From NCBI GenBank assembly GCA_913778085.1, contig CAJYXJ010000002.1, positions 1-44,288 of the forward strand: a stretch of 44,288 nt of DNA. The letters run 5' to 3'. Within the stretch, counting starts at the first letter, position 1. Every line of letters starts with the position of its first letter. The stretch comes from an uncultured Chryseobacterium sp. Lineage in GTDB: Bacteria > Bacteroidota > Bacteroidia > Flavobacteriales > Weeksellaceae. The notes beneath the pieces are model-generated. The model was not told where the DNA came from. It ran no database searches and saw only the letters and a list, made by a program, of their open reading frames with translations. Shown here one piece after another: positions 3,444-7,390 of this stretch. The translations under genes were made by a program, and so were the position numbers.

Positions 3444-3818
3444 TTATCTTACCTGAGACTTTAAGAATTCATTTTCTTCTCTTAAAGATTGGATTTCTTT
3501 TTCGAGTTTGTCAATATATTTTTTCTGGGTTTCTAAAAAAAAATCCGGAATATTGGAGTAGTTAATATTACTTCCCGCATGATCATGAAAAGTAGAATTT
3601 TCAAATTGAAAAGAAAACTTTGCATCATCATTTTTAATCTCTTCTACCGGAACCTCTAATGTTTTTGCCAATTTCTCCCACTCATCATCAAAAATTTTAA
3701 CTTCTCCGCGCTCCTTTCGTGAATAGTTTGATGGATCTGTACCTATTATTTTTGCCATTTTTTCCTGAGATATACCTTTTTGTTTCCTGATATTTCTTAA
3801 TTTTTCCTGAATTATCAT
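3444..3818 (-). CDS. Helix-turn-helix (XRE-type) regulator with C-terminal coiled coil
   Basis: The 124-residue protein has an N-terminal XRE-type HTH (about 4-60: LRNIRKQKGISQEKMAKIIG then SNYSRKERGE). A linker containing FHDHAGSNINYSNIP follows, and then a short heptad-like coiled coil (about 93-124, YIDKLEKEIQSLREENEFLK). The layout of HTH, DHA-G-N linker and terminal coil is shared with the protein at 42679. It is divergent from the precursor peptide gene at 4054, with a 235-base AT-rich interval between. Its AT-rich composition matches the cassette rather than prmC, so it probably arrived with the cassette and may regulate it. That role is inferred from position. Confidence 0.85.
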   Translation of the reverse strand: MIIQEKLRNIRKQKGISQEKMAKIIGTDPSNYSRKERGEVKIFDDEWEKLAKTLEVPVEEIKNDDAKFSFQFENSTFHDHAGSNINYSNIPDFFLETQKKYIDKLEKEIQSLREENEFLKSQVR

Positions 3819-3846
3819 ATTGTATCTTTTTTACAAATATGCAAAA

Positions 3847-3900
3847 TATGTACACATTCTACAAAAAAATTGCAAAAAAATACACATATTATTTCACTTC
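3847..3900. promoter_or_regulatory. Imperfect direct repeats between the HTH gene and the peptide gene
   Basis: Two similar AT-rich blocks, one starting near 3840 (TGCAAAATATGTACACATT) and one near 3871 (TGCAAAAAAATACACATATT), lie about 31 bases apart. They sit just upstream of the HTH gene start in the divergent interval. Their position suits binding sites for the HTH regulator, but low complexity makes chance similarity possible. Confidence 0.35.
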
Positions 3901-3917
3901 GATTTGATTTTTATTTC

Positions 3918-3941
3918 TAGTTTTGACTCATCAACGTTGAT
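3918..3941 (+). promoter_or_regulatory. -7 box and perfect 12-bp palindrome, candidate promoter/operator of the peptide cassette
   Basis: TAGTTTTG (3918-3925) fits the TAnnTTTG -7 box. Five bases later ATCAACGTTGAT (3930-3941) is a perfect 12-bp palindrome, placed where transcription should begin. An operator over the start site would give repression. There is no clear -33 box. The leader to the ATG at 4054 would be about 120 bases. Confidence 0.45.
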
Positions 3942-4053
3942 AAAAATAATAAGATCCTGTTTTTGTATGTGCACAATACAAATATAGTCTTAAAATTCCC
4001 ATTGCCTGGGATGATATGGCAAAATAAAATTTTTAATTTACAAAATTTACAAA

Positions 4054-4269
4054 ATGAAAAAACTTACAGGAATGAAGAAGAATTTTTCTTCTTTGGAAAA
4101 CAAGAGATTAAAAGACCTTAAATCTATTCAAGGATGTTTAATGGCAGCGGGTAGTTCAAGAAAGTCGCCTTCAAATGCAGGAGGACAATGGGATCAGGAT
4201 TATTATACTGATAATAATACTGCAGGTGAATGTGTATATGCTGGAAGACATACTTTAGAATTTGATTAA
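4054..4269 (+). CDS. Small precursor peptide of the grasp-with-spasm RiPP cassette
   Basis: This 71-residue peptide has a Lys-rich N-terminal leader (about 1-33, MKKLTGMKKNFSSLENKRL onward) that ends in CLMAAG. The acidic, Thr-containing C-terminal part carries D47, D49, D53, E59, E69 and D71 with T52, T56 and T67. Acidic side chains plus hydroxyl or Lys donors are what ATP-grasp peptide ligases join in omega-ester or amide rings. It resembles the short Chryseobacterium peptides found beside ATP-grasp/SPASM maturases (TIGR04139-like, from memory). A hairpin follows the stop, then the lipoprotein and maturase genes. The modified residues and the function of the product are unknown. Confidence 0.8.
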   Translation: MKKLTGMKKNFSSLENKRLKDLKSIQGCLMAAGSSRKSPSNAGGQWDQDYYTDNNTAGECVYAGRHTLEFD

Positions 4270-4287
4270 CCCATTATAAGTATTAAA

Positions 4288-4317
4288 AAAGGCTGCCTTA
4301 ATTACAAGGTAGCCTTT
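4288..4317 (+). terminator. Hairpin between precursor and maturase genes (attenuator-like)
   Basis: Bases 4288-4299 and 4306-4317 form a 12-bp stem with one G-T pair and a 6-base loop. The T-run does not follow directly (TTTTT comes about 10 bases later), so termination may be partial. A leaky terminator here would make much more precursor than enzyme, a common RiPP arrangement. Confidence 0.7.
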
Positions 4318-4350
4318 GTAAATAATTTTTCATAAAAGCATAAAATATTT

Positions 4351-5217
4351 ATGATCTACAAAAAAACGCATTCGATACATATTCTTATAGCAAGTTTTTT
4401 TTTAATTTCTTGCAAAAAAAAAGAACATAATTCTATCCCTTACTATAACAAAGTTAATGAGATAGACAGTATTTACAGAATAGCAGGAAACTCTGAATTG
4501 GCTGTAAAAAAATACAAAGAATTATTTAACGAATATTCTCCTAAGAATCAAGAAAAGATTGAAGAGTATGAAACATATATACAATTATCTGAACAGCGTA
4601 ATATCGATTTTGGAGGAAAAGAGAGCTTATATAAACTCATCACTTTAATCGTACCTTCTCAAGGTAAATATAAAAAATATTTGCCTCTTTTTAAAAAATA
4701 TGGAATTGACAGTACAGAAGTAAAAAATAAAGTAGCAAAATATAAAAGTAGCTTGAATCAAAAACTTATAGATTCTCTTACCATTGCATCCCACCGAGAT
4801 CAGGAAGGTGGACGGCATGATATATTAATAATGCAAAAGAGCGATCATAAAAATTTGAATCTTTTTTTACAAATTTTTGATCAGTATGGGTATCCATCTG
4901 AAGAAAAGGTAGGAACTGTCGGAAATGACGGAGAACCGTTAGCAATTGTCACTATTCTTTCTCATTTGATTTGCTTTGATCATGACAAAATATATTCAAA
5001 ATTAGTTGAATTTCTAAAAAAAGGAGAAATCCCTCCTCGCACATTTGCATTTATTGTCGATAAATATTATTTGTGTAAAAAAAGTACAGGTTATTATTAT
5101 ACTTATGGTGAAACTTCAAAAGAAGACTCTTTGATTATTAATCGCAGACGTAAAAGTATTGGGCTTCCTAGTCTTAGACATTATTCTAAAATAAAAACAG
5201 ATTTTCACAAAAAATGA
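4351..5217 (+). CDS. Predicted lipoprotein of unknown function in the RiPP cassette
   Basis: The 288-residue protein starts with a signal peptide ending in the lipobox LISC (Cys about 21) followed by Lys residues, so it should be lipid-anchored outside the inner membrane. The rest is Lys-rich and probably helical, with the segments HRDQEGGRHDILIMQKSDHKN and GNDGEPLAIVTILSH as the most distinctive parts. I recognise no domain. Its stop codon overlaps the start of the ATP-grasp gene (ATGA), which implies translational coupling and a role in the same system: perhaps export, processing or immunity, though nothing in the sequence decides between these. Confidence 0.78.
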   Translation: MIYKKTHSIHILIASFFLISCKKKEHNSIPYYNKVNEIDSIYRIAGNSELAVKKYKELFNEYSPKNQEKIEEYETYIQLSEQRNIDFGGKESLYKLITLIVPSQGKYKKYLPLFKKYGIDSTEVKNKVAKYKSSLNQKLIDSLTIASHRDQEGGRHDILIMQKSDHKNLNLFLQIFDQYGYPSEEKVGTVGNDGEPLAIVTILSHLICFDHDKIYSKLVEFLKKGEIPPRTFAFIVDKYYLCKKSTGYYYTYGETSKEDSLIINRRRKSIGLPSLRHYSKIKTDFHKK

Positions 5218-6116
5218 TATTAATTATTTCGAAAAAAAATGATCAAAGTACAATAGAAGTTATGAAATGGCTATCAAAAATGGCTAAAAAATGCATTTTT
5301 GTATATGAAGATGAAGTTTTCGAAATCAAGACTAAATATAAAAGAGTTTTAATCGAAAGTCAAAGAAATACTTTTTTTTTAGATGAAATAGCGAGTGTAT
5401 GGTACAGAAGAGGAGGTATTAGGTTTAATCGTTATCAATACGAAAATAATTCAGTTAATATACACATGAATGAAACCCAATACTGGTTAGAAGATTATGT
5501 ACTTAAAACATTAGAATCAAAAAAACATCTTAATAAGCAAAGTAATTGTCATGTTAATAAGCTTTTGGTTTTAGAAAAAGCACAAAAAGCAGGCTTAAAT
5601 GTTCCTGAATATTTTTTAGCAGAAAATACCAATGAAGTAGCAATAAACAAAACTATTGTAAAACCAATTGCAGGAAACCCAATTTTAGAATCACTTGAAA
5701 AAAACTGTGATGGCATAATGTATACATCTATAGTTGAAAATAAAATAAAAGAGAATTTTTTTATTTCTTTTTTTCAGGAAAAAATAGAAAAAGATTTTGA
5801 GATCAGAAGTTTTTATCTTGATGGAAAAATCTGGTCGATGGCAATTTTTTCACAAAATGACGAACAGACAAAAACCGATTTCAGGAAATATAATCTTGAA
5901 AAACCAAACAGAAATGTACGATATAATCTGCCTAAAGAAATCGAAACAAAAGTTCATCAATTAATGCAAAGCTTAGATTTGAATTGTGGTTCAATAGATT
6001 TTATGAAAAGTTGTGACAAATATTATTTTCTAGAAATTAATCCTATCGGACAGTTCGGAAATGTCTCAGCAGATTGTAATTATTTATTAGAAAAAGAAAT
6101 AGCGGAATACTTATAA
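5214..6116 (+). CDS. gwsG: ATP-grasp peptide maturase (GwsG-type, graspetide ligase-like)
   Basis: This 300-residue ATP-grasp enzyme resembles the MvdC/MvdD-type ligases that form omega-ester or omega-amide links in ribosomal peptides. VWYRR (62-66) is the family's N-terminal-domain motif, K150 lies in the ATP-binding strand TIVKPI, and FQEKIEKDFEIRSFYLDG (about 187-204) spans the hinge and substrate region. D262 with E274-x-N276 (LEINPIGQFG) are the expected Mg-ATP ligands. It overlaps the lipoprotein gene by 4 bases and is followed after 19 bases by the 63-residue ORF. The predicted substrate is the peptide at 4054. Confidence 0.88.
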   Translation: MILIISKKNDQSTIEVMKWLSKMAKKCIFVYEDEVFEIKTKYKRVLIESQRNTFFLDEIASVWYRRGGIRFNRYQYENNSVNIHMNETQYWLEDYVLKTLESKKHLNKQSNCHVNKLLVLEKAQKAGLNVPEYFLAENTNEVAINKTIVKPIAGNPILESLEKNCDGIMYTSIVENKIKENFFISFFQEKIEKDFEIRSFYLDGKIWSMAIFSQNDEQTKTDFRKYNLEKPNRNVRYNLPKEIETKVHQLMQSLDLNCGSIDFMKSCDKYYFLEINPIGQFGNVSADCNYLLEKEIAEYL

Positions 6117-6135
6117 AATTTTATCCAACGCAAAT

Positions 6136-6327
6136 ATGAAAAAACAAATTAAAGACAAACATAACCTCCCACTGACATTCAATTTTATTGAATTAATTAA
6201 AAAGACAAATTTGGGAAAAGACAATAAAAATAGGTATACTTTATTTCCTGTAAAAAATATCAAGCAGATTTTTATGTACGAGAAAAACCTTTTAAACCTC
6301 TTACCAGAATGCTATGAAATATTTTAA
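6136..6327 (+). CDS. 63-residue protein of unknown function between the two maturase genes
   Basis: The reading frame codes for a Lys/Asn-rich 63-residue protein (starts MKKQIKDKHNLPLTFNF, ends ECYEIF). It begins 19 bases after the ATP-grasp gene and overlaps the SPASM gene by 14 bases, an arrangement typical of coupled translation. I recognise no domain and it has no signal peptide. It could be a small accessory or peptide-recognition subunit, a second short substrate, or a non-coding frame. The tight spacing and AT-rich composition shared with the cassette favour a real gene. Confidence 0.6.
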   Translation: MKKQIKDKHNLPLTFNFIELIKKTNLGKDNKNRYTLFPVKNIKQIFMYEKNLLNLLPECYEIF

Positions 6328-7390
6328 TTTATTTAGTAATATTCATATAACAAAGGGTGTAAATAGAATTCTCATTTCAGATCTACAGAGAAATACCTCA
6401 GAACTATATTCTTTTGAATTGTATGATCTTATAATAGAATTAAAAACAAATTCTATTGAAAATATTTTAGAAAATTATGATGAAGAATCTAAAGAAATAG
6501 TATCTGAATATCTGGATTTTCTATTGGAAAAAGAATTTGGTTTTATAACACAAAATGATTGGGACAAAAACTTTCCACCGCTGTCTTGTGAATATCATAA
6601 TTATAATATTTTGTCAAATATTTTTGTAGAACTCAAGGATCTGACTGTTCTTAAAACTATACGTTACTCAATAGAAAGCTTAGAAATAAAACACTTGGTT
6701 ATCTATTCTCCAAGAATGCTTCTATTGAGGGAGTTTTTGGAAATTGACGATGTTTTCTCCGGCTCAACACTGGAAGGCATTGAAATTTTTTCGCCGTTCC
6801 ACGATTCGGTTAATTCGGATTTTATTCAGGACATTGATAAAGAAACGGCCAGAATATACAGCTTGGTCTTTTACAGTTGTCCAAAAGTTCCCTTTAAAGC
6901 AGATGACAGTTTTAGATTTTCTATTAATTTTACCGATCTGTCCCTGAAAATTTCATCCTGCGGAAAAGTAAGCCTGGATTATTTCAACACCAATCTCCCA
7001 AAAGTCCTTGAAGCCCTAAATCACAACTCCTGTCTTTACAAGAAAATTGGTATCGATATCGATGGCAATATCAAAAACTGTCCGGCCATGCCCCAGACTT
7101 TTGGAAATATAAAAGACATCCCTCTGGAAGAAGCTTTACAGCATAAAGACTTTAAAAAATACTGGAATCTTACCAAAGACGGTATTGAAGTCTGCAAAAA
7201 TTGTGAATTCCGCTATATCTGTACAGACTGTAGAGCCTATACAGAGCAAACCCACTACGATAGGGACCAAAGAGACCTTTCTAAACCGCTGAAATGCGGA
7301 TACAATCCTTACACCGGAGAATGGGAAGAATGGAGCAAAAACCCGCTAAAACAAAAAGCTATTCAGTACTACAGAATGCCGGAAAAATAA
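6314..7390 (+). CDS. gwsS: SPASM-domain peptide maturase (GwsS-type) without radical-SAM Cys motif
   Basis: The 358-residue protein has a SPASM-like C-terminal domain: C240-x10-G-x4-C256, then C294-x2-C297-x5-C303-x2-C306 and C328. This fits the pattern that binds auxiliary iron-sulfur clusters in radical-SAM peptide maturases. The N-terminal two thirds contain only C92, C189 and C216 and no CxxxCxxC, so the radical-SAM cluster appears to be absent. It partners the ATP-grasp enzyme in grasp-with-spasm cassettes; the reaction is not known to me. The gene is mosaic: the 5' part to about base 6740 is strongly AT-rich, and the 3' part has the composition of the surrounding chromosome. Confidence 0.85.
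   Translation: MKYFNLFSNIHITKGVNRILISDLQRNTSELYSFELYDLIIELKTNSIENILENYDEESKEIVSEYLDFLLEKEFGFITQNDWDKNFPPLSCEYHNYNILSNIFVELKDLTVLKTIRYSIESLEIKHLVIYSPRMLLLREFLEIDDVFSGSTLEGIEIFSPFHDSVNSDFIQDIDKETARIYSLVFYSCPKVPFKADDSFRFSINFTDLSLKISSCGKVSLDYFNTNLPKVLEALNHNSCLYKKIGIDIDGNIKNCPAMPQTFGNIKDIPLEEALQHKDFKKYWNLTKDGIEVCKNCEFRYICTDCRAYTEQTHYDRDQRDLSKPLKCGYNPYTGEWEEWSKNPLKQKAIQYYRMPEK

Follow-up and report, generated by a model that had tools for sequence, protein, structure and literature searches.

What role does a SPASM protein play beside the ATP-grasp ligase of a graspetide cassette? This question is raised by a grasp-with-spasm block of six open reading frames (ORFs), flanked by prmC and a rhomboid gene, at positions 3444-7390 of a 44,288-nucleotide stretch (hereafter the window; contig CAJYXJ010000002.1, assembly GCA_913778085.1) from an uncultured Chryseobacterium sp. 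The original prediction, made from the letters alone, described an inserted, AT-rich cassette for a ribosomally synthesized and post-translationally modified peptide (RiPP). Its positions for a helix-turn-helix (HTH) regulator, a 71-residue precursor, a lipoprotein, an ATP-grasp enzyme, a 63-residue ORF and a SPASM protein, with overlaps of 4 bases (5214-5217) and 14 bases (6314-6327) at two junctions, were borne out. The explanation that we favour, and consider moderately probable as a whole, is that of a graspetide cassette in which the SPASM protein, GwsS, would serve as a non-catalytic Fe-S partner of the ATP-grasp ligase, GwsG, a function that we infer, and whose upstream part was exchanged by recombination.

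Relatives of gwsS were collected from 45 fetched stretches, from 80 named loci, the best of 353, and from the window. After 13 partial matches had been dropped, 106 full-length copies remained, which encode 97 distinct proteins. The CX3CX2C cluster motif of radical S-adenosylmethionine (SAM) enzymes was found outside the SPASM domain in none of the 97 proteins, and a single homologue matches it at residue 294, within SPASM. As a control, 21 genomes were scanned for SPASM; of the 41 matches listed, 30 were examined. The motif was absent from all 23 gwsS-like proteins and present, at residues 102-122, in six of the seven other SPASM proteins of the genus; the seventh (L241) turned out to be an incorrect reading frame chosen across an incomplete gwsS. 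Judged by its motifs, GwsS is thus not a radical SAM enzyme, and SPASM should not be taken here as a sign of radical chemistry. The SPASM domain itself was recognized by its profile (TIGR04085, 35.3 bits against a cut-off of 27) and by eight cysteines, Cys 216, 240, 256, 294, 297, 303, 306 and 328, which are kept in 96-97 of the 97 homologues, the exception apparently being one degenerate row (L107:4329). Seven or eight SPASM cysteines are reported to bind two auxiliary clusters (PMC10352776).

The predicted structure of GwsS has a leader-binding RiPP recognition element (RRE, about residues 2-80), which matches in fold the solved structures of leader-bound RREs, followed by a shortened barrel and SPASM. 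The closest fold to the model is CteB, a thioether former. A comparison of the gwsS profile with PDB sequences gave six matches, the best to an 'OT3' chain (E 1.7e-4) and the others with E >0.4, which were judged to be chance. On motifs and model together, GwsS is best read as an Fe-S protein that would bind the leader and assist the ligase as a scaffold rather than act as a radical enzyme. PMC8939145 counts the SPASM protein of its 'branch 5' systems among the radical SAM enzymes and proposes thioethers; relative to that description, the useful new point is that GwsS appears to be built like a leader-binding Fe-S scaffold.

The ligase bears the WYRR (residue 63) and ExN (EIN, residue 274) signatures that had been predicted and, in addition, DFR at residue 222, so that both DFR and ExN of graspetide ligases are present. 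Among 102 distinct full-length GwsG relatives, D222, R224, E274 and N276 are each kept in 95% or more; the literal DFR occurs in 74 and WYRR in 77 of them. DFR has been termed critical for graspetide synthetases (PMC13097080). Among PDB entries, GwsG matched AMdnB, CdnC and two 'ATP grasp ligases', 5ig8 and 5ig9. The latter two we take to be MvdC/MvdD. In its ATP-grasp homology and motifs GwsG thus resembles microviridin-type ligases; unlike in those systems, the leader motif Phhx(1,2)h was found in none of 95 grasp-with-spasm precursors.

These 95 precursors are those of at least 50 residues among 97 distinct ones that a model of the leader (the first 30 residues) recovered in 89 of 102 loci. 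Their leader-core junctions are GG in 83, GA in 6, GS in 5 and GC in one, that of the window. In the aligned cores, one column holds Ser/Thr in 92 of the 95 and another Asp/Glu in 94, both being occupied in 91, of which 86 have the two residues 7-11 positions apart. Eight shuffled and realigned control sets, made with fewer refinement rounds, gave maxima of 0.30 and 0.42, and four of them had no column that passed the occupancy filter. In the window precursor the conserved columns correspond to S40 and D47, the predicted ring of its peptide. A second pair of columns is coupled: of the 37 cores that have Thr at column 48, 35 have Asp/Glu at column 36, against 20 of the 58 others (Fisher p 1.8e-9, uncorrected for relatedness). 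The window precursor has Arg at the column concerned and Thr67 two positions later, which makes a second ring, with D53/T67 as the candidate pair, uncertain.

By gene content and profile scores, the block is a real member of the known but uncharacterised grasp-with-spasm graspetide system. Both enzymes, encoded side by side, exceed the cut-offs of the models against which a search had been suggested (TIGR04192 and TIGR04193; Table 1). With other members the block shares, besides the two enzymes, a putative LPL gene directly before gwsS, a lipoprotein, an MKKL leader and a core with Ser/Thr and Asp/Glu; it differs in its junction (GC, not GG), the apparent frameshift in its LPL gene and a precursor that scores below the precursor models. 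Branch 5, with 190 loci the largest of the poorly characterised ATP-grasp groups, combines an ATP-grasp enzyme and a SPASM protein with a small LPL gene, described as always immediately preceding the SPASM gene, and with 'cluster 23' proteins, many of which carry lipoprotein signals; in some of its precursors one Thr/Ser and one Asp/Glu are strictly conserved and most probably joined to each other (PMC8939145). In PMC13097080 every member of group 14 co-occurs with a SPASM protein, and groups 21 and 15 were characterised; graspetides have also been obtained from groups 2, 7, 8 and 19 and from one unnumbered group (PMC9576775). Branch 5 and group 14 we take to be one and the same. In keeping with the earlier statement that the product chemistry is not established, no characterised grasp-with-spasm product was found among the searchable open-licence PMC papers.

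The 63-residue ORF is probably part of a frameshifted member of the LPL family. In 78 of the 106 copies the LPL gene adjoins gwsS; the two overlap by 4 bases in 77 of these (72 of 73 when distinct proteins are counted) and by 14 bases only in the window. In 12 further copies it lies farther upstream, in contrast to the 'always directly upstream' of PMC8939145, and 15 of the remaining 16 have an ORF of 55-79 residues that ends near the gwsS start, a likeness judged by eye; some of these lack the LPL motif. Of 85 distinct full-length LPL proteins 57 were aligned; all end in K-x3-[RKQ]-x-[LI] and 56 contain LP[LI]. The window ORF retains NLPLTF, the C-terminal end lies in the next frame, and the LPL model matches both pieces, so that the gene is frameshifted or the draft sequence in error at this point; the frameshift accounts for the 14-base overlap. 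Two ideas about LPL were rejected. A folded PqqD-like domain was discarded because GwsS already has an RRE-like domain and because LPL modelled alone reached only pLDDT 55.9 and pTM 0.14, no fold search having been made with that model. The PqqD Pfam model gave two matches below and none above the cut-off across 41 genomes, which was uninformative. The other idea was a detached microviridin-type leader motif: Phhx(1,2)h occurs in its strict form in 12 and in a looser form in 53 of the 57 LPL proteins. No NCBIfam model matched more than one of the 57 (best E 0.015).

The lipoprotein of the window has no Pfam match and thus does not reach the cut-off of DUF6624 (PF20329), a family matched weakly by two of 28 homologues (best E 0.011). 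When the 28-row alignment was compared by hhalign with 20 DUF6624 proteins of the genus, a probability of 98.9 was obtained (E 1.7e-17; four controls at most 1.1), which persisted at 98.9 (E 2.6e-17) after removal of the single row known to lie near gwsS. Profile comparison thus points to a remote DUF6624 homologue, which is probably the cluster 23 protein of PMC8939145. As it would act outside the cytoplasm, it more probably serves immunity or maturation than the formation of rings.

How the cassette came to lie between prmC and the rhomboid gene was approached through 119 genomes of the genus, 95 of which have a gwsS match. The two flanking genes are on one contig in 115 (one pair 873 kb apart). 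The comparison of this interval that had been proposed confirmed that the site varies: gwsS lies within it in at least six of the 115, namely G000 (the window genome), G019, G049, G087, G103 and G109, and in G039 a gwsS end is found next to the rhomboid gene where the contig ends. The gap is smaller than 300 bp in 12, for example 256 and 61 bp in the relatives G014 and G033, and larger in the other genomes. The AT-richness of the cassette also held on average, with a GC content of 0.295 against 0.405 in the rest of the window, but not to its end: the low GC content stops inside gwsS, rising to 0.390 over 6691-7390. The gwsS genes of G049, G087, G103 and G109 have GC contents of 0.34-0.47 in every 120-base bin. 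In trees of 27 of the 97 proteins, these four group with the window on GwsS residues 1-200 (SH-aLRT 94, not starred), and on residues 236-358 the window pairs with G049 (96). As these four same-site copies are not AT-rich and group with the window, a swap within a resident cassette fits better than the plain insertion originally envisaged, and 3444-6690 is probably the swapped segment.

Exchange with a border inside gwsS is suggested elsewhere in the genus. Compared in steps of 25 codons, the gwsS genes of L114 (contig 69 of G000) and L092 (G026) are 35-58% identical in bases as far as codon 225 and 88-95% from codon 251 on. A clade of the two is rejected on the N-terminal part (p-AU 0.0017), and on the C-terminal part they stand together, the pair itself without support and with 88 for the pair plus L196. 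L114 and L196 are 77-82% identical in the flanks, 74% in the XRE region and 85% at the gwsS end, with no match between the XRE region and the gwsS end. In 48 of 435 same-site pairs a matching block begins within gwsS, at codons 169-253, and extends beyond the gene by 1 kb or more, for example in two C. jejuense records (L133/L162), which are 93% identical from codon 211, 86% in the left flank and 60% in the N-terminal part of gwsS. These counts are to be read with the caveats that the left block was required to lie at least 2 kb upstream of gwsS, which in some pairs falls within the cassette, and that the C-terminal part is more conserved in any case: 1277 of 4656 pairs match in it but not in the N-terminal part, and 5 of the 435 same-site pairs combine at least 80% identity in the former with less than 60% in the latter. 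The border in the window, near codon 125, lies to the left of the usual one, and a donor was not found among the relatives compared. No phage match was found. Three plasmid records matched, two of Elizabethkingia anophelis (NZ_CP016375.1 and NZ_CP071549.1, gwsS at 62-63%), which are a possible route of spread, and one of Hymenobacter (24%).

In the proposed mechanism, the RRE of GwsS would bind the conserved leader of the precursor, and GwsS would hold precursor and GwsG together, perhaps with LPL as a flexible adaptor. GwsG would activate the conserved Asp/Glu and couple it to the conserved Ser/Thr through an ester bond, S40-D47 in this peptide, with a mass loss of 18 Da; D53/T67 may form a second ring. 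Cleavage between G and C would then remove the leader, and export would probably rely on a C39 peptidase-transporter encoded at another place in the genome. Strains would exchange the upstream part of the cassette by recombination, with the right end inside gwsS. A more far-reaching proposal, which we regard as evenly balanced, holds that the GwsS family is a disarmed radical SAM protein that kept the RRE and the SPASM cluster cysteines and lost the SAM cluster; it would have become an obligate partner of the ligase, bringing it the precursor, or would perform SAM-free Fe-S chemistry, with LPL as a detached adaptor and the SPASM-encoding 3' end as the fixed point for the exchange of whole cassettes.

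Other readings of GwsS have to be weighed. A working radical SAM maturase that introduces thioether or C-C bonds into a Cys-bearing core, along the lines of PMC8939145, is very improbable. SPASM with its cysteines, the CteB-like fold and the occurrence of at least one Cys in 77 of the 95 cores, among them the window core with one, agree with such an enzyme, but the remaining 18 cores have no Cys, the model leaves only four residues between strand 102-106 and helix 111-122, and the reading was rejected because the cluster motif found in the other SPASM proteins of the genus is missing. GwsS might instead carry out a redox reaction on the peptide through its auxiliary clusters without SAM, a new kind of Fe-S chemistry for which we know of no precedent. 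The retention of eight cysteines despite loss of the SAM cluster motif would be explained in this way, but equally by purely structural clusters, and together with the Cys-less cores this renders SAM-free chemistry unlikely. Several observations weigh against a non-catalytic partner of GwsG in an active cassette: the Cys in most cores; a SPASM domain whose complete Cys set could itself support redox chemistry; a window precursor below the cut-offs of TIGR04139 (33.1 against 40 bits) and PF14406 (21.3 against 25); the dependence of the ring assignment on a single alignment of related sequences; the poor LPL model, which makes the adaptor role a guess; the low count of the strict motif in LPL; and the LPL frameshift, which may render the window copy inactive.

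That the window holds a decaying, non-functional cassette is a tentative but serious possibility. Besides the frameshift, the GC junction unique among the 95 precursors, the many genomes without a cassette at this site and damage in same-site relatives point in this direction, the latter in G019 (L072, a decaying copy in which the ligase, SPASM and XRE genes are broken and LPL has no match) and G049 (split lipoprotein gene). Arguing against decay are the open reading frames of precursor, GwsG and GwsS with their conserved residues, and in a draft of 82 contigs the frameshift could be a sequencing error. The fresh insertion of a whole foreign cassette would account for the low GC content from 3444 onwards and for the short gaps in G014 and G033; it is improbable in view of the higher GC content of the last 700 bases of gwsS, the same-site copies of ordinary composition that group with the window, and the blocks that start inside gwsS. 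A swap is, for its part, missing from most same-site pairs: under a stricter rule, the N-terminal part of gwsS is shared in 293 of 328 and not in 21.

Among known systems, rosaritide also has a graspetide synthetase that co-occurs with a partner (MirB/MirC, PMC13097080), one with a weakly RRE-like N-domain. MirC has a SurA-like C-domain, whereas GwsS has a radical-SAM-like core and SPASM, and the dependence of GwsG on GwsS is putative. From CteB (5wgg), a radical SAM thioether maturase of 440 residues, GwsS differs by its lack of CX3CX2C outside SPASM and by its length of 358 residues. If GwsS is a non-radical partner, GwsS-dependent rings with a loss of 18 Da, not thioethers, should be sought, and S40, D47, the eight cysteines and the RRE form a short list for testing. 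The system would then exemplify a radical SAM fold that has become a scaffold, as well as RiPP cassettes that are exchanged via a conserved gene end.

Table 1. Features of the grasp-with-spasm block in the window
Feature	Position	Strand	Evidence or remark
XRE-type HTH regulator, divergent from operon	3444..3818	-	HTH_3 E=9.9e-11, 42 bits vs cut-off 23
Graspetide precursor, 71 aa	4054..4269	+	Conserved leader; core conservation
Lipoprotein, 288 aa, Cys21; remote DUF6624 homologue	4351..5217	+	Profile comparison
GwsG, ATP-grasp graspetide synthetase	5214..6116	+	TIGR04192 360.3 bits vs 230
Putative LPL-family small gene, apparently frameshifted	6136..6317	+	63-aa ORF 6136-6327; C-terminal part in next frame, 6234-6317
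GwsS: RRE, shortened radical-SAM-like core without cluster motif, SPASM	6314..7390	+	TIGR04193 419.2 bits vs 175
AT-rich tract, GC 0.274; probable swapped segment	3444..6690		Ends inside gwsS near codon 125

A divergent XRE relative was found in 12 of the 97 distinct cassettes, and the AT-rich interval between the XRE gene and the precursor contains no convincing repeats. The window genome has three more gwsS genes above the TIGR04193 cut-off, on contigs C69 (L114), C62 (L112) and C40 (L113), a gwsS-like gene below the cut-off beside a C39 peptidase-transporter on C37 (L115), and two adjacent ATP-grasp genes on C13 (L116). Two-piece gwsS-like genes occur in L108 (G026:C3, 7478-8574) and L109 (G076:C3, 7368-8450); their N-terminal parts are 30-36% and their separate SPASM ORFs 71-72% identical, and the ORFs of L108 overlap by 4 bases. 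In L111 (G033:C2, 7565-8310) a precursor (52%) is followed by about the last 107 residues of gwsS, with no ligase match in the 12.5 kb stretch. In L091 (G035, 2517-2795) an XRE relative (46%) lies between prmC and the rhomboid gene with no other cassette genes and is perhaps a remnant. The window also contains two tandem tRNA-Met genes on the minus strand, at 207-280 and 317-390.

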